Assembly: GCA_012729575.1 (NCBI GenBank)
Contig: JAAYCW010000034.1
Span: 1-48,554, forward strand
Direction: 5' to 3'
DNA: 48,554 bases
Origin: Actinomycetota bacterium
GTDB taxonomy: Bacteria; Actinomycetota; Thermoleophilia; RBG-16-64-13
Shown: positions 22,945-44,274 of the stretch, one piece after another
Layout: the number at the start of each line of letters is the position of its first letter
Position numbering within the stretch: the first letter of the stretch is position 1
Made by a program: the position numbers and the translations under genes
Notes under the pieces: model-generated
Told to the model about the DNA's origin: nothing
Database searches by the model: none
Seen by the model: only the letters and a program-made list of their open reading frames with translations

Positions 22945-25143
22945 TCAGTCCTCTTCATCCTTAGGTGGAACGAAGCCGTATTCCTCGCTGCGGAAGACCT
23001 CCTCCGTCAACTCCTCGTCCTTGGCCTTGTACACCTTGCAGAGCAGGCAGGTCAGGTCGGGCGAGCCGTACATGGGGTCGAGGTGGTCGTTGCTGGTGAG
23101 GACGTTCGGGTTGGAGATCATCAGTCCGTGGTACCCCTCGGACGGTTCTTCAGGGTAGAAGCAGTTGGCGGTGGCCATCAACACGCCCTTCTTGATGCCG
23201 GGGAAGACGTGCAGCTTCTGACGGATCTTGCCACGGGGCGACTCGATCCAGATGATATCGCCGTCCTCGACACCATACTGCTTAGCGGTGTCCGGATGGA
23301 GCTGGCACTGCGGGAACTCCATGAAGCTGCGCAGCCAGGGGATGTTGCGGTACTGGCTCAGGAAGTACCAGGGCTGCCGGAAGCCCGTGCTCATCACGAT
23401 CGGATATTCCTTGAAGAGGTCGGGGCGCGAGACCGGACTTTCCCCCGGCTCATTGTAGACGGGAAGAGGATCGTAGCCGAGACTCTCCAAATGGTTCGAA
23501 TGGAACTCGAACTTCCCGGTGGGTGTGGGGAATCCACCGCCCTCTTTCCAGTAGTCGGTCTTGTACTTGTAGTACACCTGATCGGGGCCCCAACAGCCGC
23601 TCACCAGATTCTCGCTGAACTTCTCCCAGGTAAGGCCACCCTTGCGTAGCTGATGGTCCAAGGACTTCTCTTCGCTCTCGAACCAGGCTTCGGGGTTGAT
23701 CCTCTTGCCCACCTCGTTGAAGATCCAGTGGTCCGACTTGGCTTCCCCCGGAGGGTCGACTACCTTGTTGTGGGCCTCGATCATGAACCGGGGGTGCATG
23801 TCGTAGATATCGTCGATCTCCAGCCAGTGAGCGGCCGGCAGGATGATATCGGCGGCTTCGCACATGGGGCCCATGAACAGGTCGCAGTGGACCATAAACT
23901 CGACCTTCTCGATGGCCTCCACCACTTCTTTTGTGTTCGCCATATGAACGATCTGCTGTCCGCCCACGCTGAACCAAACCTTGATGGGCGCTTCTCCCGC
24001 GATGACCTTCTTGACCAAAGTGTCCGGGTTGCAGGTCCGCGCCGCGCCCATCTTGTACTTGTCGATGCCGATCACGTGGCTGCGCATCTCGTCGGTGTAC
24101 GGGAGCTCGAGGAATACGTCCTCGATCAGGCCGGTCTCCGGAAGCACCCAGCTGATCATGCTGCCCGGCCGCTCAATATTGCCGGCCAGACCCATCAGGC
24201 AGGTGATAGCCCTGAGCGTGTGGCCGCAGTTGGCCTGGCGCTCCAGGGAGCTACCCACCTGGATGCAGCCGGGAGTGTCAATAGCCCACATCCGCGCAGC
24301 CTCGATGACCTGCTCCTTGGGTATCCAGCAGATCTCTGAGACCTTCTCGGGCGTGAACTCCTTGACCCGTTCACGGAGCTCATCAAAGCCGAAGGTCCAG
24401 TTGTCGACGAACTCCTTGTCCCAGAGTTCTTCTTCGATGATGACATTCATCATGCCCATGGCCAGAGCACAGTCCGTGCCCGGACGGGGCTGGATCCACA
24501 GGGTGGCCCGAGTCGCGTACGCGCTGGCCCGTGGGTCGATGACGATGAAGTTCTTGCAGTAATCGAGCGATTTCATGAACCAGTAGCACATCTCGGAGTC
24601 GGCGCTACTGATCTCCAATTGTTTGGCCCAGACGATGTTGGTCTTGGGAAATTCGCCGCCCCAGCCATGGTAGTCGCAGTAGAGCCGGCCGTAGCCTGTC
24701 ACCAGTCCATAGAGGCCGAGCCGAGGGCTGTGACAGACGTAGCCTGGGGTGATGATGTTGGCGGTTCCCAGCGAGCGTGCCAGGCGGTGGGTGTAGCGGT
24801 TGTAACCGCGGCCCGTGCCCTGGGAGATGGCGACGGTATGGGCGCCGTAGTTGTCTATGGCATCCCGCATCTTGGCCTCGATGGTATCAAGCGCCTCGTC
24901 CCAGGAGATCCGCTTCCACTTGCCGGTGCCTTTCTTACCCACCTGCTTCATGGGGTATTTGAGGCGGTAGGGGTTGTCGACATGCTGGATGCTCGACAGG
25001 CCCTTGGAGCACATGGTGCCGCCGGTTAGGGAGTTGGGGTTGCCTTCGATGTGTACGATGACCCCGTCTTCCTTCGTCACCTTGACGCCACACCCGCCGT
25101 GGCAACTCTTGCATGTCGAATAAATGACTTCTCTATTTGCCAT
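22945..25143 (-). CDS. Molybdopterin oxidoreductase catalytic subunit
   Basis: This is a 732-residue bis-MGD enzyme. An N-terminal [4Fe-4S] site uses C11, C14, C18 and C45; the presumed Mo/W ligand is Cys137 (PGYVCHSPR). The central dinucleotide-binding domains and a C-terminal MGD domain (LHPDTAKQYGVEDGDIIWIESPRG) are complete. No Tat signal is present, so it should be cytoplasmic although its partners include an NrfD membrane protein. Segments such as GMMNVIIEEELWDKEF resemble acetylene hydratase and related enzymes, but the NrfD and FeS partners argue for a redox reaction. The last gene of a three-gene operon; a remnant paralogue lies at 2658-3203. The substrate is unknown. Confidence 0.88.
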   Translation of the reverse strand: MANREVIYSTCKSCHGGCGVKVTKEDGVIVHIEGNPNSLTGGTMCSKGLSSIQHVDNPYRLKYPMKQVGKKGTGKWKRISWDEALDTIEAKMRDAIDNYGAHTVAISQGTGRGYNRYTHRLARSLGTANIITPGYVCHSPRLGLYGLVTGYGRLYCDYHGWGGEFPKTNIVWAKQLEISSADSEMCYWFMKSLDYCKNFIVIDPRASAYATRATLWIQPRPGTDCALAMGMMNVIIEEELWDKEFVDNWTFGFDELRERVKEFTPEKVSEICWIPKEQVIEAARMWAIDTPGCIQVGSSLERQANCGHTLRAITCLMGLAGNIERPGSMISWVLPETGLIEDVFLELPYTDEMRSHVIGIDKYKMGAARTCNPDTLVKKVIAGEAPIKVWFSVGGQQIVHMANTKEVVEAIEKVEFMVHCDLFMGPMCEAADIILPAAHWLEIDDIYDMHPRFMIEAHNKVVDPPGEAKSDHWIFNEVGKRINPEAWFESEEKSLDHQLRKGGLTWEKFSENLVSGCWGPDQVYYKYKTDYWKEGGGFPTPTGKFEFHSNHLESLGYDPLPVYNEPGESPVSRPDLFKEYPIVMSTGFRQPWYFLSQYRNIPWLRSFMEFPQCQLHPDTAKQYGVEDGDIIWIESPRGKIRQKLHVFPGIKKGVLMATANCFYPEEPSEGYHGLMISNPNVLTSNDHLDPMYGSPDLTCLLCKVYKAKDEELTEEVFRSEEYGFVPPKDEED

Positions 25144-25170: not shown

Positions 25171-26142
25171 CTAGTAGGCGCGGCCTTTGGGCAGGATTGG
25201 TCTGTAGATGCCGACCTTGAGCACCCCGTACTTGAGCGAGAAGGCTCCGATCGTATGGCAGATGATCGCGAAGACGAGCAGTCCTGTTGACGCCTCTTCT
25301 CCCGTGAAATAGCTGACGACGGAGACCACCAACGGTACGATGATGCCCAGCAGTACTATGCCCAGCCAGAAGACCCAGGCCACGCGCCCGCGGACCAGTT
25401 CTTTCACCGATAATTCGGCCGTGGCCGACTGGTAATTCGCGTTGACCAAGTACATGATGATCAGCAGGGCGTTGACGATCAGCAAGATGCGCGTGGCCGA
25501 CTCTGCGGTAGGGATGACATCCTCGCCAGTGACCATCCCGACTCCCATGATGAGCGCCAATCCGTCCGCCACTCCCATGAGTAGGAACACGATCGGCAAC
25601 AGTCCTGTGTTCCAGAAGGGAACGCTTTTGCAGTAGCTCATGGCGAATCCGCAATACACGGCGGTCATCACGCCGAAGATGCCGGCCAGAACCATGAAGA
25701 CGTAGTTGGCCGCCCACACGCCGGAACTATCGGCCACATCGTAGGCGATGAGACCCTGCAGGATGAGTTGAATGGCCCCGAAGACCAAGAAGATCATGGT
25801 CATCACGATACCGCGGGCGAACCATGAGGTCCGCCACGCCTTACTGAATGGTGGGAAGGCCCTCCAGAAGCGGTACCACTTTCCAAGGTAGAAGGCGTGC
25901 AATGGCAACTTGAAGATCGCGATGCCGATCCAGCCGAGGATGCCTGCCCAGAAGGCTGTGACGGCGAATTCCTCCCGAAGGGCAAAGAAGATGGACACCA
26001 AGTAGAGGCCGGTGCCGAGGGCCGAGAAGACCTCAGCCCACCAAACCAGCAATCCTTTCCCAGAGATCCACTCGGTCTGAGCCATGGGCTTGATCATCCA
26101 CTCGTGGGTGACCATCCATTGACGGGCTGTCCGTGCGTTCAT
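25171..26142 (-). CDS. NrfD/PsrC-type membrane subunit
   Basis: This 323-residue integral membrane protein has eight or so helices and the NrfD/PsrC family layout. Such subunits exchange electrons between the quinone pool and an FeS subunit. The conserved early segment GLLVWWAEVFSALGTGLYLVSIFFA matches the first NrfD helix and its quinone-side residues. It lies between the FeS subunit gene and the catalytic subunit gene, with 28 nt to the latter. A membrane-bound menaquinone-linked complex is the likely assembly. Confidence 0.85.
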   Translation of the reverse strand: MNARTARQWMVTHEWMIKPMAQTEWISGKGLLVWWAEVFSALGTGLYLVSIFFALREEFAVTAFWAGILGWIGIAIFKLPLHAFYLGKWYRFWRAFPPFSKAWRTSWFARGIVMTMIFLVFGAIQLILQGLIAYDVADSSGVWAANYVFMVLAGIFGVMTAVYCGFAMSYCKSVPFWNTGLLPIVFLLMGVADGLALIMGVGMVTGEDVIPTAESATRILLIVNALLIIMYLVNANYQSATAELSVKELVRGRVAWVFWLGIVLLGIIVPLVVSVVSYFTGEEASTGLLVFAIICHTIGAFSLKYGVLKVGIYRPILPKGRAY

Positions 26143-26158: not shown

Positions 26159-26932
26159 CTAGTCCGCATTCTTCTTGGCAAGTTTCTCTTTGGATGGAGC
26201 GTAGACGGAGCTCAGATGCTGGATGTGGCTGCCGGTCTGCGCTTCGATAGGCGCCTTGTTGGACGGCGCGCCTCCCAGCTTGTAGTCGATGTAGTAGACG
26301 GAGGGCTCTGTGCCGTATTCGTCGTGGAGTACAAACCCGTTCTTCTCCCGGATCAGCTTGGAAACGTTGCTATTCGGATCGTCCAGATCGCCGAAGGTCA
26401 GAGCCCGGGCCTGGCAGATGTTCACACAAGCGGGGGTGGCTTCACGGTCGATTCCCGGTTTCAGTCCTTTGGCCAACCCGGCGTCAATGCGCTCCATGCA
26501 GAAGTTGCATTTCTCCGTGGTGCCTACCTGATGAGGGTAGATCTGCTTTCCCTTCTTCTCGAACCCGGTCTTGGCGTGCTCGGGGAAGTAATTGGGGTTG
26601 CGCTTGCGCGATAGATAGGTGCGGTTCTGATACGGGCAGGCGATGACGCAGTACCGGCAGCCGAAGCATTTGTTTGAGTCGATGGCTACGATGCCGTCCT
26701 CACGTTTGTATGAAGCCTCGGTAGGGCAGACCTCGACGCAAGGCGCCTCTTTGCACTGGTTGCAGCGGACCGGGTACGTGGAAACGTCGACGCTGAAGCC
26801 GTCATCGGTTTCAAGAGCTATCAGCCGCGGCCAGGTCATGCGCAACGGGAGGAAGTGCTCGATCCGGCACGCGGCGATACACCCGTGGCATCGGGTGCAC
26901 TTCGCAAGGTTGATGACCATACCCCATCTCAT
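26159..26932 (-). CDS. Four-cluster ferredoxin subunit (DmsB/PsrB type)
   Basis: This 257-residue electron-transfer subunit has four ferredoxin motifs: CTRCHGCIAAC, CNQCKEAPCVEVCP, CFGCRYCVIACP and CNFCMER with its distal CVNIC. That gives up to four [4Fe-4S] clusters joining the molybdoenzyme to the NrfD subunit. There is no signal peptide. It is the first gene of the operon; its promoter region contains the 42-bp dyad at 27067-27108 that recurs upstream of the transhydroxylase genes. Confidence 0.9.
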   Translation of the reverse strand: MRWGMVINLAKCTRCHGCIAACRIEHFLPLRMTWPRLIALETDDGFSVDVSTYPVRCNQCKEAPCVEVCPTEASYKREDGIVAIDSNKCFGCRYCVIACPYQNRTYLSRKRNPNYFPEHAKTGFEKKGKQIYPHQVGTTEKCNFCMERIDAGLAKGLKPGIDREATPACVNICQARALTFGDLDDPNSNVSKLIREKNGFVLHDEYGTEPSVYYIDYKLGGAPSNKAPIEAQTGSHIQHLSSVYAPSKEKLAKKNAD

Positions 26933-27066: not shown

Positions 27067-27108
27067 TACGATATCTCAATATTGTTGAGTAATATGGCCG
27101 ATATCGTA
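27067..27108 (-). promoter_or_regulatory. 42-bp dyad element, copy A
   Basis: Inverted arms TACGATATC (27067-27075) and GATATCGTA (27100-27108) are perfect 9-bp complements. A 47-bp stretch including it matches about 37 of 47 positions of the reverse complement of copy B at 40811-40852. Both copies point the same way toward a molybdoenzyme operon. This is probably an operator or activator site. The rest of 26933-27267, about 335 nt, holds no gene I can support; it has one weak 7-bp hairpin at 27192-27212. Confidence 0.65.
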
Positions 27109-27267
27109 GACTAGGAATGGGCGATTTGCAAGGTAAAAGTGCTGCGTGGCGACTGTGGTCCGAGCCTCACGGGCGGCGCGGGCTTCTTGGGCGCCACCCC
27201 TTTGCGGTGGCGGTCGTCGGGCGTAGACTTCGTATATGAGCAAATCACCGGAGATAGGTATAAAACG

Positions 27268-27531
27268 GTGACAGCTGAAGCGGATACCATCTCAGTCAGC
27301 GTCCAGTTCCATCCTCTTTTGCGTGCGTACTTGCCGCGCCCGGACGACAAGGGTCCCCGCACTGTGTCTGCCCCGGTGAACACGACCATCGGTGAGATAG
27401 TGCGCCTCTTCTGGGGGCTTCCCTCTGATATCCAGGTATTTGCGGTAGTCAATGGCCGATCGAGGACTCTCTCGACCGTGCTGAATGACGGCGACACGGT
27501 GAGCGTCTTCCTGGCCGTGGCCGGCGGGTAG
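27268..27531 (+). CDS. MoaD/ThiS-like sulfur carrier
   Basis: This 87-residue ubiquitin-fold protein ends in the diagnostic Gly-Gly (VFLAVAGG), whose C-terminus is thiocarboxylated to deliver sulfur to molybdopterin. The pattern TIGEIVRLFWGLP and LNDGDTVSVFL fits MoaD. GTG 27268 is chosen because it gives family length; GGAG lies 16 nt upstream, which is far. MoaD-like genes are often found with AOR genes, and the window has AOR and three molybdopterin complexes. No MoaE, MoaA or other cofactor genes are present here. Confidence 0.75.
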   Translation: MTAEADTISVSVQFHPLLRAYLPRPDDKGPRTVSAPVNTTIGEIVRLFWGLPSDIQVFAVVNGRSRTLSTVLNDGDTVSVFLAVAGG

Positions 27532-27663: not shown

Positions 27664-28623
27664 GTGGAACTAGATGACGTCAAGAAAGTAGCGATCTATG
27701 GTGCGGGCACCATGGGGCCCGGCTTGGCCCAAGTGTTTGCCTCTGCCGGATATGACGTGACCATGTATTCGCGCAAGCAGGAGACTCTTGAGAAGGCCAT
27801 GAGGGTCACGAAGGCAAATCTGGACACTTTTGTCGAACAAGGGTTGACCTCCAAAGATGCAGTTCCCACTATCCTCGCGCGCATCAAGACTACCCAGTCG
27901 GTCGAAGAAGCGGCGGTAGACGCCGACTTCGTCATCGAGACCATCGCAGAGAAGTTGGATGCCAAGAACGCGCTGTACGTAGAACTCGATCGCCTCCTAC
28001 CCGAAGAGACCATCATCACCAGTAACACCTCTTACCTCAACATCTATGAAGTGATGCCGGCGGCAAGGCTTCCGTATACGGTTATCGCCCACTGGTTCGC
28101 CCCCCCGCACATCGTCCCGTTGGTCGAGGTGGTCAAGGGCCCGGAGACCGCTCAGAAGACCGTAGATCTGATCGTGGAACTCCTCAAGACAGTGGAAAGA
28201 GTGCCTACCGTACTAGAGAAGTTCGTGCCCGGGTTCTGCATAAATCGTTTCCTGCGGATCATCGGTCGCGAGATCTTCTTCCTGCTAGATAACGGCTATA
28301 TGACCGCTGAGCAGCTCGACCTGGCCGTCAAGGCCAGCATCATCCCTCGGGCGATGGTCCTGGGCTTCGTCCAACGGTATGACTTCACCGGCATCGATCT
28401 GAGCTATGGCAACCTGCAGAACCCCAACTTCATCGAGCCGCCCATCGACAACAATCCCCGCAGCCTTGCGGAACTGATGGAGAAGGGTGAACTTGGAGTC
28501 AAGAGCGGCAAGGGCTTCTTCGACTACAGTGACCGGCCCCTGGAGCAGGTCTTGAAGGAACGCGATGCCGCTCTCATCAGAGTGTTCGAGGACGTCAAGG
28601 ACCTCATCTACAAGCGCATATAG
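27664..28623 (+). CDS. 3-hydroxyacyl-CoA-dehydrogenase-family hydroxyacid dehydrogenase
   Basis: This 319-residue NAD-dependent enzyme has an N-terminal Rossmann site (VAIYGAGTMGPGLAQ), the catalytic serine-asparagine segment SNTSYLN and the catalytic His in HWFAPPHIVPLVEVVKG. The usual CoA-enzyme reading is HFFNP...; the form here is closer to lambda-crystallin/L-gulonate and carnitine dehydrogenases, which act on free beta-hydroxy acids. GTG 27664 follows GGGAGCAGG. It is 28 nt ahead of a beta-keto acid cleavage enzyme, a pairing seen in carnitine degradation and in the published phloroglucinol pathway, where (S)-3-hydroxy-5-oxohexanoate is oxidised before cleavage. The latter is favoured by context. 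Confidence 0.85.
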   Translation: MELDDVKKVAIYGAGTMGPGLAQVFASAGYDVTMYSRKQETLEKAMRVTKANLDTFVEQGLTSKDAVPTILARIKTTQSVEEAAVDADFVIETIAEKLDAKNALYVELDRLLPEETIITSNTSYLNIYEVMPAARLPYTVIAHWFAPPHIVPLVEVVKGPETAQKTVDLIVELLKTVERVPTVLEKFVPGFCINRFLRIIGREIFFLLDNGYMTAEQLDLAVKASIIPRAMVLGFVQRYDFTGIDLSYGNLQNPNFIEPPIDNNPRSLAELMEKGELGVKSGKGFFDYSDRPLEQVLKERDAALIRVFEDVKDLIYKRI

Positions 28624-29506: not shown

Positions 29507-29570
29507 GACCCCGGCTCACACACGCAGGCCGATGGGGAGCTTTGGACCGCGAAAGGATGGTGGCTGGATC

Positions 29571-30344
29571 ATGGATGACCTGTTCTCCCTGAAGGGTAAG
29601 AACACCGTGGTGGTGGGCGGAGCCGGTGGCATCGGCCGGGGCCTCGCGAAGGGGTTCGTACAGTATGGGGCCCAGGTGGCCATCGCCGATATCAACGAAG
29701 CTTCGCTGGAGACAGCTGCGCAGGAGATCGAGGAGGCCACCGGCCAGAAGGTCTTGACCTATACGGTCGACACCGGAGAAGAGGGCAACGTGCAGGACCT
29801 GGTGGCGAGGGCTGTCGCCGACTTGGGCCGCGTTCACGTGCTCGTCAACGCGCAGGGTTTCAACACCAAGGCCCCGGCGACGGAGTTCCCGCTGGCCGAC
29901 TGGGACAAGTTGTTCAATGTGAACGTCCGTGGCGTCATGCTTTGCTGCAAGCATTTCGCGGCGCACATGGCCGAGCAGGGGGGCGGTAAGATCATCAACC
30001 TGTCCTCCATCCGAGGCGCACGTGCAGCTCTGGGCGGCAATCTGGCATATTGCGCCAGCAAGGGTGCCGTGAACATGATCACGAAGCAGCTGGCGGTTGA
30101 ACTGGCTTCCCGGAAAGTCTTGGTCAACGCCATCGCTCCGATCATCACTATCACCCCCATGACTGAGGAGCGGGTTAGGCGGGAGGCCGACCGGTATGAG
30201 AAGATGTTGGTCAACGTTCCCATGGGACGCATGGGTACCGTGGCCGATCTCGTGGGGCCGGCAGTTTTTCTGGCCTCACCGGCTGCCGACTTCGTGACCG
30301 GGACGATTCTCTACCCCGACGGCGGTACCATGTCATTCGTGTAG
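29571..30344 (+). CDS. SDR-family oxidoreductase 1
   Basis: This 257-residue short-chain dehydrogenase has the nucleotide motif GGAGGIGRG, NAQG in place of NNAG, and the catalytic Ser-Tyr-Lys set (LSS, then YCASK). The start MDDLFSLKGKN resembles gluconate 5-dehydrogenase-type SDRs. ATG 29571 follows an AAAGGATGG stretch; upstream in-frame residues overlap the end of the BKACE gene region. It is in the same operon as the dehydrogenase/BKACE pair. It may be a ketone/ring reductase such as phloroglucinol reductase, which is an SDR in known anaerobes, or a dehydrogenase for an intermediate. Confidence 0.85.
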   Translation: MDDLFSLKGKNTVVVGGAGGIGRGLAKGFVQYGAQVAIADINEASLETAAQEIEEATGQKVLTYTVDTGEEGNVQDLVARAVADLGRVHVLVNAQGFNTKAPATEFPLADWDKLFNVNVRGVMLCCKHFAAHMAEQGGGKIINLSSIRGARAALGGNLAYCASKGAVNMITKQLAVELASRKVLVNAIAPIITITPMTEERVRREADRYEKMLVNVPMGRMGTVADLVGPAVFLASPAADFVTGTILYPDGGTMSFV

Positions 30345-30375
30345 TTGCGGAACGCCCCCGGGGGTGGGGTTGATT

Positions 30376-31194
30376 ATGGCTGAACCAGCGGAGACGAAGG
30401 AAGGCGTGAAGTCCGCGAACGGTGGAGACGGCGCATTCATGGTGCGGGCGCTGGCGAAGGGCCTCACCATCCTGGGTCTCTTCGATGCCGAGAATCGCGA
30501 ATGGACGCTGGACGAGATCGCCAAGGCAACGGGTCTCCCCAGAATGACCGCCTACCGGATGATCCGGACCATGGAATCCGCACGGTATCTAGTGCGGGAT
30601 CCGGTCACCAATCGCTATCATTTGGGACCCGCTCTGCTTGCGACTATGTATCTGTCCGGGGGCTACTCCGAGCTCGCCGGGATAGTCCGCCCCTATCTGG
30701 TGGATCTTGCCGACACCACCGGAGAGGCCGCGACCTTGGCCATAGAGTACGATGGGGTGGCGGTAAGCGTAGACATGGTGGACACCCCTCGTCCTCTCAG
30801 GCGGGAAGTGGCTCTTGGCCGTATCATCGGTGACACCGCCAGCGCGAACGGCAAGATTTTTGCCGCCTTCAAGACCGGTGAGGAGAGGGAAGAGATCCTT
30901 TCCGCACCCCATCCGCAACTCACAGAACACACCATAACCGACCCAAAGGCGCTCGCGGAAGAGTTGGACCGCGTGGTGCGCGATGAAGTGGCTTTCGATA
31001 TCGAGGAGCGAAACATCGGCACGTGTGCCGTAGCGGCTCCGGTGCGCGATCAGGTGGGCAAGGTCATAGCCGCGCTTTGTGTGATCGTGCCCACCGGGCG
31101 TTTCGGCTCTGAGGAGAGAGTGGCGTATGCGGAGGCCGTCAAGGCTTCAGCCGCCTCTCTCTCCGCGTTTCTGGGGTATTCCAAGCGGGACTGA
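30376..31194 (+). CDS. IclR-family regulator 1
   Basis: This ~272-residue IclR regulator has an N-terminal winged helix ([23 protein letters not shown]) and a C-terminal effector domain with the family pattern GKIFAAF and [21 protein letters not shown]. IclR proteins often control aromatic catabolism and bind its intermediates. ATG 30376 follows GGGGTGGGG and is preferred over GTG 30364. It lies inside the operon between an SDR and alanine dehydrogenase genes. It is clearly paralogous to the regulator at 39939-40742, so one duplication may have given each half of the island its own control. Confidence 0.9.
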
Positions 31195-36416: not shown

Positions 36417-37235
36417 CTATTTGGTGAGTGCGATATCTCCCAGGTTCACGTCCTTCTCGGTGTTGATCTCCTCGAGCGTCTTCGGCGCGAATCCATCGGC
36501 CGAGATCTCCAGCTTGTACGTATCTCCCTCGGCCAACCCCTCGAACCAGAAGTCCCCGAAACCGTCGGTGGTGACGCTCCAATTGCCGCCGTTGCCGTCG
36601 GTCAGAGCACAGGCCGCGCCTTCGACGATCTCCTTGGTGATGGGATCGTACACAGTACCGCCGATGAACTTCTTCGGGATGTTGAGGTAGTACACCCGCG
36701 GCTTGGCACCCAGTTCCGGCTTCAGGACTTCTGCCTCGGCGATCTCGGCGGCGAAATCGCCCTCTTCGCCGAACTTCAGGGCCTCGGTGGGGCAGGCGTC
36801 CACACACCGGGGGACCGTCCATTCGCCGCCATCGAGGAGGTGAGCGCACCCGGTGCACTTCTGCGCCAGGTTGAGATCGTCATTGAAGTAGATGGCGCCA
36901 TAGGGGCAGACGTCGACGCAAAGCCGGCACCCGGTGCACTTCAGCGAATCGATGATGACGAGTCCATCTTCCCGCTTGTAGATGGCTCCCTCGATCGGGC
37001 AGGGGGGAATGCACGGAGCTTCGTCGCAGTGCATGCATGGATTGGCGATGTAGTGCATCTTGACTTTGGGCACGGTGCCGCGAATGTGCTCGTCGAGCCT
37101 CATCCAGAACTGACCGGTGTCAGGCTGGGGCTTCGCGATCGGGGACCAATCGTTGCCGACGTGCTCGTCTTTGCAGACGAACTGGCAGGCGTAGCAACCC
37201 ACGCACAGGTTGACGTCCATAACGAAGACCTTCAT
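36417..37235 (-). CDS. Transhydroxylase-type beta (FeS) subunit 1
   Basis: This 272-residue protein is the electron-transfer partner of the alpha subunit gene that it overlaps by 4 nt (ATGA). The first ~195 residues carry four complete ferredoxin motifs: CVGCYACQFVC (C11-C21), CMHCDEAPCIPPCP, CTGCRLCVDVCP and CTGCAHLL with CVDACP. The last ~75 residues are a carboxypeptidase-regulatory-like beta domain, a layout shared with the Pelobacter acidigallici pyrogallol transhydroxylase beta subunit. Unlike that protein and the second copy at 43435, no cluster ligand is lost, which suggests real electron flow to a partner. There is no signal peptide, so it is cytoplasmic. Confidence 0.87.
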   Translation of the reverse strand: MKVFVMDVNLCVGCYACQFVCKDEHVGNDWSPIAKPQPDTGQFWMRLDEHIRGTVPKVKMHYIANPCMHCDEAPCIPPCPIEGAIYKREDGLVIIDSLKCTGCRLCVDVCPYGAIYFNDDLNLAQKCTGCAHLLDGGEWTVPRCVDACPTEALKFGEEGDFAAEIAEAEVLKPELGAKPRVYYLNIPKKFIGGTVYDPITKEIVEGAACALTDGNGGNWSVTTDGFGDFWFEGLAEGDTYKLEISADGFAPKTLEEINTEKDVNLGDIALTK

Positions 37236-39859
37236 TTGTCGCCCTCCTCGATCCAAGCGTCGAAGCGTAACCCGGCACCGGGGTCGTACTTCCTCGCGAA
37301 GGCCTCGGGGTAGTCCCTGCGCCACTCTTCCCATTCTTCGTTCTTGACCTTCTGCACATCGACCAAGTAGCCGCTTGTAGCTTGACCGACCGCGTTCTTG
37401 GACGTGATCCCGTTCGGTGCGATGGTGTTGATCGCTCCACCACGGCAGACCTTACCGGGGACCAACGGGTCATGTCGGGAGCCATGGTCGACGTACACAA
37501 CGCCGGGCTTTATCCTCTCCCAGACGCGTGCTCCCACGAGCACGATACCGCGCTCGTTAAAGATCTTGACCACGTCGCCGTCCTTGATGCCCCGAGGTTC
37601 CGCGTCGACGGGATTGATCCAGATAGGCTCGTACTTGTAGCCGTCGAATCCGAGCACCTTTCCTGTCGGGGTCTCACGTGCCCAACTGTTGTCGTCGCCC
37701 TGCGCATGTGTGCGCCAGCGCGGGTGATTCGAGACCAGGAGTAGCGGGAACATGGCCGCACGCTCGCTGGACAGGGCCTCGTCGTGGGTCTCGCCCTTCT
37801 CGATCCATTTCGGGAAGGGAGGACGCTCTTTATCATCGGGGAAGTGCTGGGCCAACCGCTCGGAATAGAACTCCAGAAGGCCGCTCGGGGTCTTCAAGGG
37901 GTTGTTCTTGGGGTCTATATAGAACTTGCGGAACCCCGGCGAGTCTTCCTCCCAATCAGTCGCCGTCTTGTACACGTAGGTCTTCTTCTCGTAGAAGTCC
38001 TCCCACGTGGTGAGGTTGTCGAGGTGCATGCTATCGAAGACCAGTTTCTGAAGGTCGAGCGTGGTCATACCCGTGGTAAATTCGTCGTAGAGTCCCAACT
38101 TCTCGGCGATAGCCGCCACGATCTCGTAGTCGCTCTTGGACTCACCGATCGGTCGAATAGACTGCTCCTGGATGGAGACGCTGGCGAAATGTGGTCCCTG
38201 ACGGGTGGTGGTGACGATATCCTCGACCTCGAGAGTCGTGTTGGCCGGAAGGATGATGTCGGCATAGAGACAGTCGTTCTCCAACCACGGATGCTGGGCA
38301 ACAACGCATTCGATGCTGGGGTCTTTCATGGCTTCTATCGTCCAGTTGCCGTGGTTCCAGCAGGTGATGCGGCAGGGAGTGTCTGTCCAGATCATGTGGA
38401 TCCGTACCCCGCCCTTATCCTTGGAAATGGGGTACGTGTACCGATCGAACTGCTCCTCAGTGGGGCTCTCCTGGCCGCCGGCGCCGTGGAAGACCAAAGG
38501 CGGCTTCAGGATGGCGTCCTGGATGAGGGTCTTGGGGATGAGCTGTGGACCCCAGGAGTGGACCGTGGTCCAGCAAGGCTTGGTGAGCCGCTCGGGCAGT
38601 TCGGGATTGAAGAAGCGGATACTGCCCAAGCCCTCCGCTCGTGGCATGCCGAAATAGGTCATCTGGCATTGATGGACTCCGGGCTTACCCAGTCCCTGCA
38701 TCCCGAGCAGGATGCACTCCAGCCGCCCCGGTTCGTGCGAGTACGGACCGCGGAACGCCGAGCCCCCGAAGTAGTGGATGATGGAGGTGGTGTTCTTGGC
38801 GAACTGCCTGGCAAGGGCCTTGATGGTCCACTCCGGTACGCCGCACTTGGGCGCAGCCCATTCAGGAGTCTTGGGGATGCCCTCCTCGTCCTCGCCGAGG
38901 ACGTAGGCGGCCACCTTGTCCATACCCACAGCGTGAGCGGCGACATACTCCTTGTCCCAGGTGTCCTCAGTCAGCCACACATAGATGATGGCCAACTGTA
39001 GCGCGGCGTCGGTGTTAGGCAGCACGGGGATCCATTTGTCGGCGTGCACCGCCGCAGCGTAGTTGAGGTCCGGGCAGATGTAGATCTGTTTGATGCCTGC
39101 TCGGGTCCAGAACTGCGAGATACGGCTGGCGTACTGGCCCGTGAAGCCCCAGGGCGTGGTCTCCTCATCGCACCCCCACTTAAGGACCAGGTCGGCATGC
39201 TCAGAGATGTCCTTGATGAGGTTTGCTGCGGGGGACATCATGCCTTGGAAGCCTTGACCCCATACATGCTTGGCCCCCCAGTACCAGCCCTCCCAGCTAT
39301 CCGGATTGCGGACCTGCTGGGTGAAGCCTCCCATCATGTCGAGCAATCGGGCCTGGTGGCCATGAGGAGTATGGATGGTCTTGCATTCCCCGTGACCGTC
39401 CCCCTGAGCAAGGATGGCGAGGGGCCCGTACTCCTTGTGGACCCGCCGTATCTCAGAGGCGATGATGTCGGTGGCTTCGTCCCAGGAGATCCTCTTGTAC
39501 TTGCTCTTGCCCCGATTCTGTGTGTTGCGTTCTCCATCGGGGTCCCAGTCGACCCGCTTCATGGGGAACTTGATGCGGTTAGGTGAGAACGTCCTCTTCT
39601 TGTAGGCGAGAGAGAAGGGAGCAGGAAGGGCCTTGGGTAGAGGCTGTAAGGTCTCGCCGTTACGCTCGATCTTCCATGGTCTGAGTGATTGGAAATCGTA
39701 TTTCCAGTCGTACTTGAGAGGCCTGATCCGAACGGCCTTGCCGTCCTTCACGTCGACGAAGCATTCCCCCCCGCCTCCGAGCAGACCACCCATCGCTAGG
39801 TTCTTGATGGTGACCTTGTCGACACTTACGTCGACCTTCTTGCGTTCCTCGTCTGCCAT
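37232..39859 (-). CDS. Transhydroxylase-type molybdopterin alpha subunit 1
   Basis: This 875-residue bis-MGD protein belongs to the pyrogallol transhydroxylase/resorcinol hydroxylase group. It lacks the N-terminal FeS cysteines usual in the superfamily. It keeps the metal-ligand Ser188 and catalytic Asp187 (NPDSWEGW) and His156, equivalent to S175, D174 and H144 of the Pelobacter enzyme. I do not find the equivalent of Tyr404: the region reads FGMPRAEGLGSIRFF. So the reaction may differ, for example hydroxylation of resorcinol or another ring. ATG 39859 follows AAAGGACG. The gene order is IclR, alpha, beta on one strand, divergent from complex 2. Confidence 0.85.
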   Translation of the reverse strand: MADEERKKVDVSVDKVTIKNLAMGGLLGGGGECFVDVKDGKAVRIRPLKYDWKYDFQSLRPWKIERNGETLQPLPKALPAPFSLAYKKRTFSPNRIKFPMKRVDWDPDGERNTQNRGKSKYKRISWDEATDIIASEIRRVHKEYGPLAILAQGDGHGECKTIHTPHGHQARLLDMMGGFTQQVRNPDSWEGWYWGAKHVWGQGFQGMMSPAANLIKDISEHADLVLKWGCDEETTPWGFTGQYASRISQFWTRAGIKQIYICPDLNYAAAVHADKWIPVLPNTDAALQLAIIYVWLTEDTWDKEYVAAHAVGMDKVAAYVLGEDEEGIPKTPEWAAPKCGVPEWTIKALARQFAKNTTSIIHYFGGSAFRGPYSHEPGRLECILLGMQGLGKPGVHQCQMTYFGMPRAEGLGSIRFFNPELPERLTKPCWTTVHSWGPQLIPKTLIQDAILKPPLVFHGAGGQESPTEEQFDRYTYPISKDKGGVRIHMIWTDTPCRITCWNHGNWTIEAMKDPSIECVVAQHPWLENDCLYADIILPANTTLEVEDIVTTTRQGPHFASVSIQEQSIRPIGESKSDYEIVAAIAEKLGLYDEFTTGMTTLDLQKLVFDSMHLDNLTTWEDFYEKKTYVYKTATDWEEDSPGFRKFYIDPKNNPLKTPSGLLEFYSERLAQHFPDDKERPPFPKWIEKGETHDEALSSERAAMFPLLLVSNHPRWRTHAQGDDNSWARETPTGKVLGFDGYKYEPIWINPVDAEPRGIKDGDVVKIFNERGIVLVGARVWERIKPGVVYVDHGSRHDPLVPGKVCRGGAINTIAPNGITSKNAVGQATSGYLVDVQKVKNEEWEEWRRDYPEAFARKYDPGAGLRFDAWIEEGDK

Positions 39860-39938: not shown

Positions 39939-40742
39939 CTAGTACGTAGGTTCTCTCGGGTTCCATCCCAGGTAGGCAGAGAACGAAGCAGCGGCTGCCT
40001 TGACAGCCTCGGTGCAACGGGCGCTCTCGGCCGGTCCGAAGCGACCCGTCGGTACTACTACAGAAATGGTAGCCGCGATGGCTCCGAACTGGTCGCGGAC
40101 AGGAGCGCCGACTGCGCAAAGCCCCATGTAGCGGCCCTCGATGTCGTAGGCCACGCCCTCTCTCGCCACCTGTTCCAGTTCGGCGGCCAGCACGTCGCGG
40201 TCCGTGATCGTGTGTGGGGTCTCTTTGGGAATGGGCCTAGCCAGGATGGCCTCTCTATCCTGGGGAGACTTGAAGGCGGCGAAGATCTTTCCATGGACGG
40301 TCGCTATATCGCCCAGGATGCGTCCGGGTGCGGTTCGGCGCTTAAACGGACGAGAGGTGTTTATGATGTCGACGCAGACAGGAAACCCGTCGACCTCCAC
40401 AGCCAGGGTGACCGACTCGCCGGTCTCTTCAACCAGCGCTCGGAGGAAGGGCCTTGCCGAGTCGATGAAAGCCGATTGATCGTCGGCGACATAGCACAAA
40501 GCCAGTGCAGCCGGTCCCAAACGATAACGGTTGCTCGCGGGGTCGCGGACAAGAAAGGCCATGGATTCAAGGGTTCGCACCATCCGGTAGGCAGTCATGC
40601 GAACCAGACCGGTCTGCTCGGCTATCTCATCGACCGTCCATTCGCGGTGGTCCACATCGAACAGTCCGAGAACCAGCAGCCCGCGAGTCAGCGCTCTAAC
40701 CGAGAGGGGATCAGTCTCTCGCGATCCGTTGCTCTCCGACAT
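39939..40742 (-). CDS. IclR-family regulator 2
   Basis: This 267-residue regulator has the IclR winged helix (VDEIAEQTGLVRMTAYRMVRTLE) and effector domain ([30 protein letters not shown]). It is a paralogue of the IclR at 30376-31194, with long identical runs such as DEIA..TGL.RMTAYRM and VVPTGRFG. ATG 40742 follows GGGGGAAGG and is preferred over the frame start at 40793. It is divergent from athL; the space between holds the 42-bp dyad copy B, a natural site for its own binding. It probably senses a ring compound or product and controls both transhydroxylase operons. Confidence 0.9.
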   Translation of the reverse strand: MSESNGSRETDPLSVRALTRGLLVLGLFDVDHREWTVDEIAEQTGLVRMTAYRMVRTLESMAFLVRDPASNRYRLGPAALALCYVADDQSAFIDSARPFLRALVEETGESVTLAVEVDGFPVCVDIINTSRPFKRRTAPGRILGDIATVHGKIFAAFKSPQDREAILARPIPKETPHTITDRDVLAAELEQVAREGVAYDIEGRYMGLCAVGAPVRDQFGAIAATISVVVPTGRFGPAESARCTEAVKAAAASFSAYLGWNPREPTY

Positions 40743-40810
40743 CCTTCCCCCATTGGCGTATGCTGAGCGTGGAGCCGAGCGTCTGTCTTGCAAATCAGTT
40801 GTACCTACTC

Positions 40811-40852
40811 TACGATACTAGCAGTATTACGGAATAATATCGAGATATCGTT
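40811..40852 (+). promoter_or_regulatory. 42-bp dyad element, copy B
   Basis: Arms TACGATACT (40811-40819) and GATATCGTT (40844-40852) form an imperfect dyad with the same 42-bp span as copy A at 27067-27108. The surrounding 47 bp match copy A at about 37 positions. It lies between the divergent IclR 2 and athL genes. A TAATAT run (40835-40840) could be a -10 for athL. The likely binder is an IclR protein; this is inference. Confidence 0.65.
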
Positions 40853-40901
40853 TTATCCCCCAAATCACGACCATCTTTGGTCACATGGGAGCTGATGCTT
40901 G

Positions 40902-43430
40902 ATGGCTGAAAAGGTGTTCTCGAGTTGCACGAACAGCGGACCGGTATCGGTCTACGTCAAGGACGGCAAGATCGTCCGCATCCGTCCCTTGGTCGTGGAC
41001 GAGAAGGATTTCAAACCCTGGGTCATCGAAGCCGGTGACAAGAAGTATTCTCCTCCGAAGAAGGTCACTCTCTCTCCGTACATCCATGCCGAGCGGCGGC
41101 GGATCTACTCCGATGAGCGCATCAGGTACCCCATGAAACGCGTGGACTTCGATCCGAATGGTGAGCGGAACCCTCAGAATCGGGGCAAGTCTCGGTACGA
41201 GCGGATCTCGTGGGACGAAGCAGCCACGTTGGTCGCGAACGAGCTCACCCGCGTGAAGGAGACCTACGGCGGCTCGGCCATCAGCGGTATCACCTCCTCA
41301 CACCATAACTGGGGCATCGTCGGCTACAAGATGGGCCCGTTCGCCCGGTTTCTCAACATGATGGAAGGGACCCCGGTGCTGGATAATCCCGACAGCTGGG
41401 AAGGGTGGCATTGGGGAGCGACTCACAGCTACGGCTTCTACTGGCGCCTCGGCATGCCCGAGCCGTACGACATGCTGGGTGACGCCCTGCAGAACGCGGA
41501 GATGATCATCTACTGGTCCAACGACCCGGACAGCACCCGGGGCACCTACTCGGGTCAGGACTCCGCTCTGTGGCGGCAGTGGCTGAAGGAGAAGGGCGTG
41601 AAGATGGTCTTCATCGACCCCTTCTACAACTACACCAACGCCGTGATGGGCGGCAAGTGGATCGTACCGCGCATGGGTACAGACACTGCCTTGGCCATGG
41701 CCATAGCCTTCGTGTGGATCACTGAAGACATATACAACAAGGACTATGTGGCGAACCGTACCATCGGTTTCGATGAGTTCAAGAAGTACGTGCTCGGCGA
41801 GATCGACGGCGTCCCTAAGACCCCCGAGTGGGCTGAGGAGGAGTGCGACGTTGACGCTCGTGTCATCCGCACCCTGGCCCGGGAGTGGGCCGCCAAACGC
41901 ACCATCCTCTCCGGCGGCTCCCGCGGTGGAGAGGGAGGGGCCTGCCGGCAGGCCTACGCCACCGAGTGGGCCCGGATGATGGTCCTCCTGCAGGCCATGC
42001 AGGGGCTGGGTGCGCCGGGGCGTAGCATCTGGGGTACCACGATGGGAGCTCCCAACAACACCACGCATTGGGTGCCCGCCTATGGCGAGCCTCAAGGCCG
42101 GATATCGATGGCGACCAAAGTGGCCAAGTACGTTCCGACCAATCCCAACCCGCAGCGCCTATGGCGTCTCACGGTGCCTGAGGCTATCCTCGATCCGCCC
42201 GTGGAGTGGTACGGAGAGGGCTTCTGCGGGCAGAGTCTCGAGCAGCAGTTCAAGCACTTCGTCTATCCCGCCCCCGGTTGCTCGGAGATCAAGCTGTGGT
42301 ACCGGTACGGCGGTTCCTTCATGGGGACGATGAGCGACACCACCAAGTGGGTGCGGATGTATCAGAGTCCGAAACTCGAGTTCGTGGTGAATCAGGATAT
42401 CTGGTGGAATAGCGAGACCCGCATGGCCGACGTGATTCTGCCGGCCTGCACCAACTTCGAACGGGACGATCTGGGTGAGTGGGCCGCCGTCAACGGCTAC
42501 ACCTGGCACGCCAGCAGCGGCTGCAACTACCGCGTGGTCGTCCGCGAGCAGAAGTGCATCGAGCCCTTGTGGGAGTCGAAGTCCGACTACGAGATATTCG
42601 CCCTGATCTTCGAGAAAATGGGGATGCGGGATCTCTACACCGACGGTGGCAAGACCGACGTCGACTGGGTGAAGGGCTTCTTCGACGCTTGTGATCTGCC
42701 CAAGCTGGTCAGCTGGGAGGAGTTCAACGCGAAGGGCTACCACATCATCAACATCGAGGATGACTACAAGCCCACTCCGGGTCTGCGCTGGTTCTATGAT
42801 GGGCGGCCCTGCGATACTCCGGACGTGGGCAATGCGAAGCGCCTCGATCCAGAGAAGTCGGGAGAGCTTGGGACCTTCAGCGGCAAGATCGAGTTCGTTT
42901 CGGAGAGCTTGAAGCAGTACTTTCCCGATGACGAAGAGCGCCCTGTGGCGCCGCGCTACATCCGAAGCTGGGAGGGGTACGGCACGCCCGGTCTGTACGA
43001 GAAGTACCCGTTGCAGCTTCTATCGCCGCATCCGCGCTTCAGCTTCCACTGCCATTACGACAAGCACACCGACTGGCTGAACGATATTTCCGTCCATCGC
43101 ATCAAGAAGGACGGCCACCCCTGGTGGCCGGCGCGCATCAATCCGGAGGATGCTGCGGAGCGGGGCATCAACACCCACGACATCGTGCGGCTGTACAACG
43201 ACCGGGCTTCTGTACTCTGTATCGCCGTGGTCACCGGGCGGGTGCGGCCCGGAGTGATACACAGCTATGCGTCCTCAGCTATGTATGACCCCCTACAGCC
43301 CGGTGAACCGGATTCTATAGACAGAGGCGGGTGCGTCTCCATGCTGACCCCGTCGCGGATGCTCTCGAAGAACGTACCGGGCATGACGCCGAATTCCTGC
43401 CTTATCGAGATCGAGAAATGGGAGGGCTGA
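40902..43430 (+). CDS. athL: Pyrogallol-phloroglucinol transhydroxylase alpha subunit
   Basis: This enzyme transfers a hydroxyl between trihydroxybenzenes, turning pyrogallol into phloroglucinol in anaerobic gallate degradation. The 842-residue bis-MGD protein follows the Pelobacter acidigallici large subunit along its whole length, with shared stretches such as KRVDFDPNGERNPQ and NPDSWEGWHWG. All four known catalytic residues have equivalents: His134 (H144), Asp164 (D174), metal-ligand Ser165 (S175) and Tyr394 (Y404). As in that enzyme, no N-terminal FeS cysteines are present. ATG 40902 is used; TTG 40899 is possible, with GGGAG upstream. The beta gene follows 4 nt later. Resorcinol or hydroxyhydroquinone could also be substrates. 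Confidence 0.85.
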   Translation: MAEKVFSSCTNSGPVSVYVKDGKIVRIRPLVVDEKDFKPWVIEAGDKKYSPPKKVTLSPYIHAERRRIYSDERIRYPMKRVDFDPNGERNPQNRGKSRYERISWDEAATLVANELTRVKETYGGSAISGITSSHHNWGIVGYKMGPFARFLNMMEGTPVLDNPDSWEGWHWGATHSYGFYWRLGMPEPYDMLGDALQNAEMIIYWSNDPDSTRGTYSGQDSALWRQWLKEKGVKMVFIDPFYNYTNAVMGGKWIVPRMGTDTALAMAIAFVWITEDIYNKDYVANRTIGFDEFKKYVLGEIDGVPKTPEWAEEECDVDARVIRTLAREWAAKRTILSGGSRGGEGGACRQAYATEWARMMVLLQAMQGLGAPGRSIWGTTMGAPNNTTHWVPAYGEPQGRISMATKVAKYVPTNPNPQRLWRLTVPEAILDPPVEWYGEGFCGQSLEQQFKHFVYPAPGCSEIKLWYRYGGSFMGTMSDTTKWVRMYQSPKLEFVVNQDIWWNSETRMADVILPACTNFERDDLGEWAAVNGYTWHASSGCNYRVVVREQKCIEPLWESKSDYEIFALIFEKMGMRDLYTDGGKTDVDWVKGFFDACDLPKLVSWEEFNAKGYHIINIEDDYKPTPGLRWFYDGRPCDTPDVGNAKRLDPEKSGELGTFSGKIEFVSESLKQYFPDDEERPVAPRYIRSWEGYGTPGLYEKYPLQLLSPHPRFSFHCHYDKHTDWLNDISVHRIKKDGHPWWPARINPEDAAERGINTHDIVRLYNDRASVLCIAVVTGRVRPGVIHSYASSAMYDPLQPGEPDSIDRGGCVSMLTPSRMLSKNVPGMTPNSCLIEIEKWEG

Positions 43431-43434
43431 GATC

Positions 43435-44274
43435 ATGGCGCGTCTGAGCCTACTGATCGATGTGACCAAGTGTAGCGGGTGCCACAACTGTTTCTTGGCC
43501 TGCCGTGACGAGTTCTACGGTAACGACTACACCCCCTACTCCGCTCCCCAGCCTCTTGAGGGGCAGTTCTGGATGCAGATCAAGGAAGTCGAGCGGGGCA
43601 CCTATCCAAAGCCGAAGTTGGACTACATACCGCTCCCTTGTTTGCACTGTGAGGAGGCGCCCTGCGTAGCGGCGGCTGCGGATGGGGCTGTGTACCGCCG
43701 CGCAGACGGAATCGTGATCATCGATCCCGAGAAGGCCAAAGGGCAGAAGGACATCGTGAATTCCTGCCCGTATCGGGTGATCTTCTGGAACAAGGAACTC
43801 GAGATCCCCCAGAAGTGCACTCTTTGCGCCCACCGGCTGGACGAAGGTGAGAAACAGCCCCGTTGCGTGGAAGCCTGCCCTACGGGTGCCCTTGTATTCG
43901 GCGATCTGGACGATCCGGAGAGTGAGATCGCGAAGCTCTCGGCCTCTCTGGATGTGGAGGTCTATCATCCCGAGTATGCTTCTCTGCCGACGGTCAAGTA
44001 TGTCGGTATCCCCAAGCGCTTCATTGCGGGTGAGGTAGTACGTCGGGACGTTCCAGGCGAGTGTGCCGAGGGGGTGAAGGTCACGCTCGAAGGCGGTGGT
44101 GTCAGTTTGGAGACCCTGTCCGACAGCTACGGCGATTTCGAGTTCGACGGGTTGGAGAAGAACACCGATTATCGAGTGGGCGTCGAGTGCGATGGCTATG
44201 CGCCGATGATCATTGAGGTCTCCACGCAGACGGATGTCGATCTGGGGGAGATCGTTCTCGAACCGTTCGACTGA
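43435..44274 (+). CDS. bthL: Pyrogallol transhydroxylase beta (FeS) subunit
   Basis: This 279-residue subunit pairs with athL. An N-terminal FeS region (C13, C16, C19, C23) is followed by CLHCEEAPCVAAAADGAVY, where the fourth Cys is lost, then DPEKAKGQKDIVNSCPY, which lacks the CxxC of a third ferredoxin motif, and CTLCAHRL with CVEACP. The same losses occur in the Pelobacter small subunit, as I recall its sequence, which leaves three clusters. Residues from about 200 form the carboxypeptidase-regulatory-like beta domain. ATG follows GGGAGGG. The thiolase gene comes 58 nt later on the same strand. Confidence 0.87.
   Translation: MARLSLLIDVTKCSGCHNCFLACRDEFYGNDYTPYSAPQPLEGQFWMQIKEVERGTYPKPKLDYIPLPCLHCEEAPCVAAAADGAVYRRADGIVIIDPEKAKGQKDIVNSCPYRVIFWNKELEIPQKCTLCAHRLDEGEKQPRCVEACPTGALVFGDLDDPESEIAKLSASLDVEVYHPEYASLPTVKYVGIPKRFIAGEVVRRDVPGECAEGVKVTLEGGGVSLETLSDSYGDFEFDGLEKNTDYRVGVECDGYAPMIIEVSTQTDVDLGEIVLEPFD

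Follow-up and report, generated by a model that had tools for sequence, protein, structure and literature searches.

A conserved 42-bp operator-like element common to two molybdoenzyme promoters, probably serving sister IclR regulators in an uncultured anaerobic actinobacterium

Are the two molybdoenzyme operons of this contig controlled through one shared DNA element, and which protein would bind it? An earlier note had pointed to similar dyads in front of both operons. The window, that is, the whole stretch of DNA analysed (48,554 bases), is the entire contig, and it belongs to a genome of 2.2 Mb which is 97% complete.

The pair of elements and the genes around them

The two elements are located as follows.

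27067..27108, minus strand: site A, 42-bp operator-like dyad; its minus-strand reading faces the FeS/NrfD/molybdoenzyme operon and its plus-strand reading the ThiS-like/HCDH/BKACE/SDR/IclR2 genes
40811..40852, plus strand: site B, 42-bp operator-like dyad between IclR1 (minus) and athL (plus)

Site A reads TACGATATC-N24-GATATCGTA with perfect 9-bp arms, and site B reads TACGATACT-N24-GATATCGTT with arms that pair at 6 of 9 positions. Once one site is reverse-complemented, 32 of the 42 core positions are identical (19 on the same strand), compared with 24 for the best other match in the window and with maxima of 26 in 100 Markov shuffles of the window and 27 in AT-rich random sequence. The earlier note was right that the two dyads have the same span and similar arms and are oriented alike relative to the molybdoenzyme operons. 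Its count of about 37 matching bp in 47 is close to the 36/47 obtained by eye when the flanking GAsTA bases are included, but the likeness continues beyond the dyad: both sites also have GTAGAsTAGG and, 17 bp outward from the arm, the word TTGCAA (in ATTTGCAAG). When the own genome was searched by pattern, allowing up to 3 mismatches, the many copies elsewhere that had been named as a sign against a specific element came down to sites A and B only (reversed control, 0), and a looser 21-position pattern gave no third copy. Sequence comparison thus supports a conserved control element that both molybdoenzyme promoters share in this genome.

The genes presumed to be under control, and those facing them, are listed below.

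40899..43430, plus strand: AthL-like pyrogallol hydroxytransferase large subunit (full-length homology and domain match)
43435..44274, plus strand: AthS-like FeS subunit (domain match)
26159..26932, minus strand: FeS subunit, first gene of the operon behind site A
25171..26142, minus strand: NrfD-type membrane subunit
22945..25143, minus strand: molybdopterin catalytic subunit
27268-27531, plus strand: ThiS/MoaD-like small gene (weak match; 51% conserved in G001), heading the HCDH-BKACE-SDR1-IclR2 run
27664..28623, plus strand: 3-hydroxyacyl-CoA dehydrogenase family protein (HCDH), candidate triacetate-forming dehydrogenase by analogy (PMC10470551)
28652..29506, plus strand: BKACE, beta-keto acid cleavage enzyme, candidate triacetate acetoacetate-lyase by analogy
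29532..30344, plus strand: SDR, candidate phloroglucinol reductase by analogy
30364..31194, plus strand: IclR2, paralogue of IclR1 and last gene of the ThiS-HCDH-BKACE-SDR1-IclR2 run
39939..40742, minus strand: IclR1, IclR-family regulator with a probable ATG start at 40742, from GGGGGAAGG-ATG and the alignment of relatives

The description of the sites as two distant promoters was an understatement, since each has a molybdoenzyme operon on one side and, on the other, an IclR gene or a gene run that contains one. At site A, the FeS start is 134 bp away, and four genes (~3.3 kb) separate the site from IclR2. AthL matches the solved pyrogallol hydroxytransferase (4v4c) with E = 1.4e-258 over residues 9-843 and also matches the N-terminal domain PF21423, and by this resemblance it is a candidate pyrogallol-phloroglucinol transhydroxylase. 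A second AthL-like large subunit with its FeS partner (BthLS, 37232-39859, minus strand) lies directly downstream of IclR1 and may be cotranscribed with the regulator.

Both regulators contain HTH_IclR and IclR_C domains above the Pfam cut-offs, and a longer TTG reading frame of IclR1 reaches 40793, overlapping the promoter. The two proteins are 57% identical and, as read from alignments, have the same recognition helix, RMTAYR, which makes both of them candidates for both sites. The corresponding helix is RMTVYR in IclR1 of G004, G007 and G012 and KTTAYR in a third IclR of the own genome; RMTAYR is not exclusive to the pair, being found in another IclR of G001 that is encoded elsewhere. As IclR1 and IclR2 are paralogues with a common recognition helix and their genes each lie next to one of the sites, shared or cross binding of the sites is likely.

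Anatomy of the dyad and the overlapping predicted promoter

The outer 9-bp arms lie three turns apart, yet each half of the element is itself palindromic (ATATC-TC-RATAT and ATACT-GCT-AGTAT, with ATAT-N5-ATAT in site A).

27071..27082, no strand: site A palindrome 1, ATATCTCAATAT (palindrome scan, centre 10.5 of the site, and direct reading)
27092..27104, no strand: site A palindrome 2, ATATGGCCGATAT, ATAT-N5-ATAT (direct reading)
40837..40848, no strand: site B palindrome 1, ATATCGAGATAT on the plus strand (palindrome scan and direct reading)
40815..40827, no strand: site B palindrome 2, ATACTAGCAGTAT on the plus strand (direct reading)

The centre at 10.5 was confirmed by script, and the second palindrome, which fell under the script threshold, rests on reading. 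By direct reading, the distance between the centres is 21.5 bp in A and B and 20 bp in the athL copy of the relative G012, which has two clean 12-bp palindromes. The arms therefore resolve better as two AT-rich palindromes of 12-13 bp, about 21.5 bp (two turns) apart, than as the three-turn PcaU-type site that had been proposed. In a survey of IclR motifs (PMC8222616), tandem palindromes 18-22 nt apart are common and are interpreted as binding two dimers on the same face of the DNA, an A/T-rich motif class is described, and the regulators control themselves plus one or two adjacent operons. The spacings in A, B and the G012 copy fall within this range; B lies between IclR1 and athL, and A faces the run ending in IclR2. 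The element is probably an IclR operator for two dimers, a prediction based on its restriction to these promoters in the own genome, its phylogenetic conservation and its position beside IclR genes.

A promoter-like signature overlaps the dyad at both sites and had been missed before; it was seen in the alignments.

27126..27131, minus strand: -35-like TTGCAA toward FeS (alignments, signature search)
27103..27108, minus strand: -10-like TACGAT toward FeS, the outer dyad arm, 17 bp from TTGCAA (signature search)
40788..40793, plus strand: -35-like TTGCAA toward athL, invariant in six aligned genomes
40811..40816, plus strand: -10-like TACGAT toward athL, the outer dyad arm (signature search)

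The distance from TTGCAA to TACGAT is exactly 17 bp at both sites, and in the window TTGCAA-N17-TACGAT occurs at these two promoters only (0.03 expected). With TACGATA and one mismatch allowed, exactly two matches were found in each of G000-G003 and G012 and one in G004, and all of them lie next to these operators; G009 has TTGCAT as its -35 word, with a different spacing. The spacer is within the 16-18 bp range, and the hexamers match the sigma-70 consensus (TTGACA/TATAAT) at 8 of 12 positions, 4 of 6 each, which explains why a promoter scanner scored them under its threshold. We read the signature as predicted -35 and -10 elements pointing at both molybdoenzyme operons, with predicted transcription starts near 40823 (plus) and 27096 (minus), so that the operator would span from -10 to about +30. 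Since the dyad lies over the -10 and the predicted start, it suggests a repressor site, and the geometry favours repression rather than activation by a protein bound there. Read directly, the opposite strand of site B has TCGATA-N17-TAGTAT and an extended TG, which could serve iclR1. TTGCAA is itself palindromic, and another protein could bind there.

Conservation across genomes

When 299 genomes were searched, matches were found in six only, and 293 had none. Strict copies number two in each of the four genus members (the own genome and three others, G000-G003), two in G004 and one in G009; G004, G009 and G012 belong to the family but not to the genus. In the genus members, the gap between IclR1 and athL always holds one copy, and the second precedes FeS-NrfD-MoCat. 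On the far side of the FeS-upstream copy, HCDH-BKACE-SDR1-IclR2 are present in G002, G003 and G012, and the G001 contig ends short of these genes. Outside the genus, the athL copy is strict in G004 and G009 and has a 1-bp shift in G012, and the position of site B between IclR1 and athL is kept in six genomes plus this shifted copy. G012 also has a diverged copy upstream of FeS, detected by the looser pattern. Within the genus, the operator is 94% pairwise identical at site B, compared with 54-66% in the intergenic flanks, and 85% at site A, compared with 26-57%.

No strict copy was found at the FeS operon of G004, where FeS lies beside IclR2, or of G009, so either the FeS operon is not always in the regulon or the IclR2 motif has diverged there. 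In these two genomes, where FeS faces IclR2, the intergenic regions L054:6880-7160 and L055:3820-4090 share the block CGATGGTAGCATGAAGGTGrTAT, perhaps IclR2's own operator. The second strict copy of G004 (L052:10206-10247) precedes an alanine dehydrogenase homologue (AlaDH) followed by heterodisulfide-reductase-like (Hdr-like) genes, a possible regulon switch. The 42-bp pattern is absent in G007 and G010 of the same family although IclR1 is encoded, and the intergenic regions of G007 and G034 contain, by eye, the words ACGATATC/GATATCGT in a different arrangement.

The relatives with the athL neighbourhood (L063-L066, L068 and L112) are uncultured Actinomycetota metagenome genomes. Joint transfer of regulator and operator with athL was rejected, as AthL relatives (59-79%) in Desulfobacterota, Bacillota, Chloroflexota and others are without the motif or a close IclR1. 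The Thermoleophilia locus L122, apparently on the same contig as L061, encodes AthL (75%) and IclR1 (62%), yet has no 42-bp motif. The identity of AthL (40899-43430 and L067-L142) to Desulfobacterota proteins reaches 79%, which suggests that the enzyme has spread widely by horizontal transfer without this regulator.

Proposed regulation, alternatives and known systems

The sequences, their conservation, their confinement to these two promoters and the geometry of the promoter are observed; the regulator's identity, its binding as a tetramer, repression and the inducer are what we infer from them. In the reading that we prefer, with a probability of about 0.72, a shared operator lies over the promoter and IclR1, IclR2 or both repress the molybdoenzyme operons. 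Each copy, with its two AT-rich palindromes, would suit two IclR dimers (one tetramer) on one DNA face. The TTGCAA-N17-TACGAT promoter would transcribe athLS at site B and FeS-NrfD-molybdoenzyme at site A. The bound regulator would cover the -10 and the start site, repressing these operons and controlling its own synthesis. It would be released by an intermediate of trihydroxybenzene breakdown, aromatic or formed by ring cleavage. The element thereby probably lets one or both sister IclRs switch polyphenol-type aromatic breakdown jointly.

The alternative that survives best, which is possible though clearly less probable, is that each regulator has its own site, IclR1 at B only and IclR2 at A only, and that the likeness stems from a common duplication of regulators and operators. 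The two are 57% identical paralogues, and the gene of each is in the arm that faces its site; the B sites have TAGTATCG in common where the A sites have GATATCG; and G004 and G009, in which FeS directly faces IclR2, lack the shared motif there. However, the same helix and the A/B similarity kept within each genome favour shared specificity. We consider it unlikely that the dyad is an activator site, at which a bound IclR would recruit or remodel RNA polymerase as PcaU and PobR do on aromatics. Aromatic catabolism is often under IclR activators, but classical activators bind upstream of -35, whereas this dyad extends over the -10 and the predicted start, a position from which a bound protein blocks. 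Activators do exist in the IclR family (PMC8222616), but the GTNCG consensus of the PcaU/PobR group is absent here. It is quite improbable that the operator belongs to some other transcription factor or redox regulator, unlinked to the locus, that controls both molybdoenzymes. The link to IclR is by sequence and position, and TTGCAA and the operator are conserved together, but the position between IclR1 and athL is kept in six genomes and, shifted, in a seventh, no copy was found in many sampled genomes without a close IclR1, and the tandem-palindrome architecture is typical of IclR. An RNA element (leader hairpin or riboswitch) was rejected and chance similarity is hardly credible either: most of the dyad falls within the predicted transcribed leader, where it might fold into a weak hairpin, but there is no worthwhile Rfam match, the conservation includes the untranscribed -35 region and the arms are AT-rich, and chance is excluded by the 32/42 match, the genome uniqueness and the 299-genome search.

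Joint control through the shared operator can be extended to a bolder and rather doubtful form. In it, the two paralogues would share the operator word and cross-control both molybdoenzyme operons, two effectors would jointly tune phloroglucinol production by athLS, the phloroglucinol pathway encoded nearby and the electron-transfer molybdoenzyme of that pathway, and TTGCAA would be a second specific protein site instead of a plain -35.

By analogy, the genes resemble those for pyrogallol-to-phloroglucinol conversion and phloroglucinol breakdown, and co-regulation of trihydroxybenzene conversion and breakdown would be a coherent reading. By linking an AthL-type enzyme to a second molybdoenzyme operon, the conserved, genome-unique operator predicts that the FeS/NrfD/molybdoenzyme complex acts in the same pathway. 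The 42-bp element can also be used as a probe for binding tests and inducer discovery. Our literature search found no paper joining an IclR regulator to a transhydroxylase, and among the titles and abstracts listed on regulation of anaerobic phloroglucinol degradation none described a regulator.

Compared with known systems, the locus has several familiar features. The characterised phloroglucinol cluster of Clostridium scatologenes comprises PGR, DPGC, TfD, TAL and a regulator of unstated family, and the divergent run at site A likewise has an SDR, an HCDH-family protein, a BKACE and a regulator gene (PMC10470551). The site A run differs in its extra ThiS-like gene, and none of the window genes scanned was identified as a cyclase-family DPGC. 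The operator of TtgV from Pseudomonas putida has a length of about 42 bp. TtgV (PDB 2XRO/2XRN) is an IclR-family regulator that is on DNA as a tetramer, according to its citation in PMC8222616, and IclR1 matches it at family level only. PcaU, PobR and PcaR are IclR regulators of aromatic catabolism, but their GTNCG-N5-6-CGNAC consensus, accompanied by an extra direct half-site in the PcaU and PobR operators (PMC8222616), is absent when sites A and B are read against it, and a group 2 site of the PcaU/PobR type was rejected. The earlier note's shared regulatory element thus stands and its PcaU comparison does not. The closest likeness is to the group 1 A/T-rich operators of the IclR, KdgR and AllR type, which likewise consist of two A/T-rich palindromes spaced by about two helical turns and are found next to the regulator gene and to one or two operons that it targets (PMC8222616). 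Sites A and B differ from these in their own sequence (ATAYC/ATACT-N2-3-GRTAT/AGTAT), in their fusion onto the conserved TTGCAA-N17-TACGAT promoter and in having molybdoenzyme operons as targets. The putative regulon is well supported as a whole, and it would be a new one of an already known kind.
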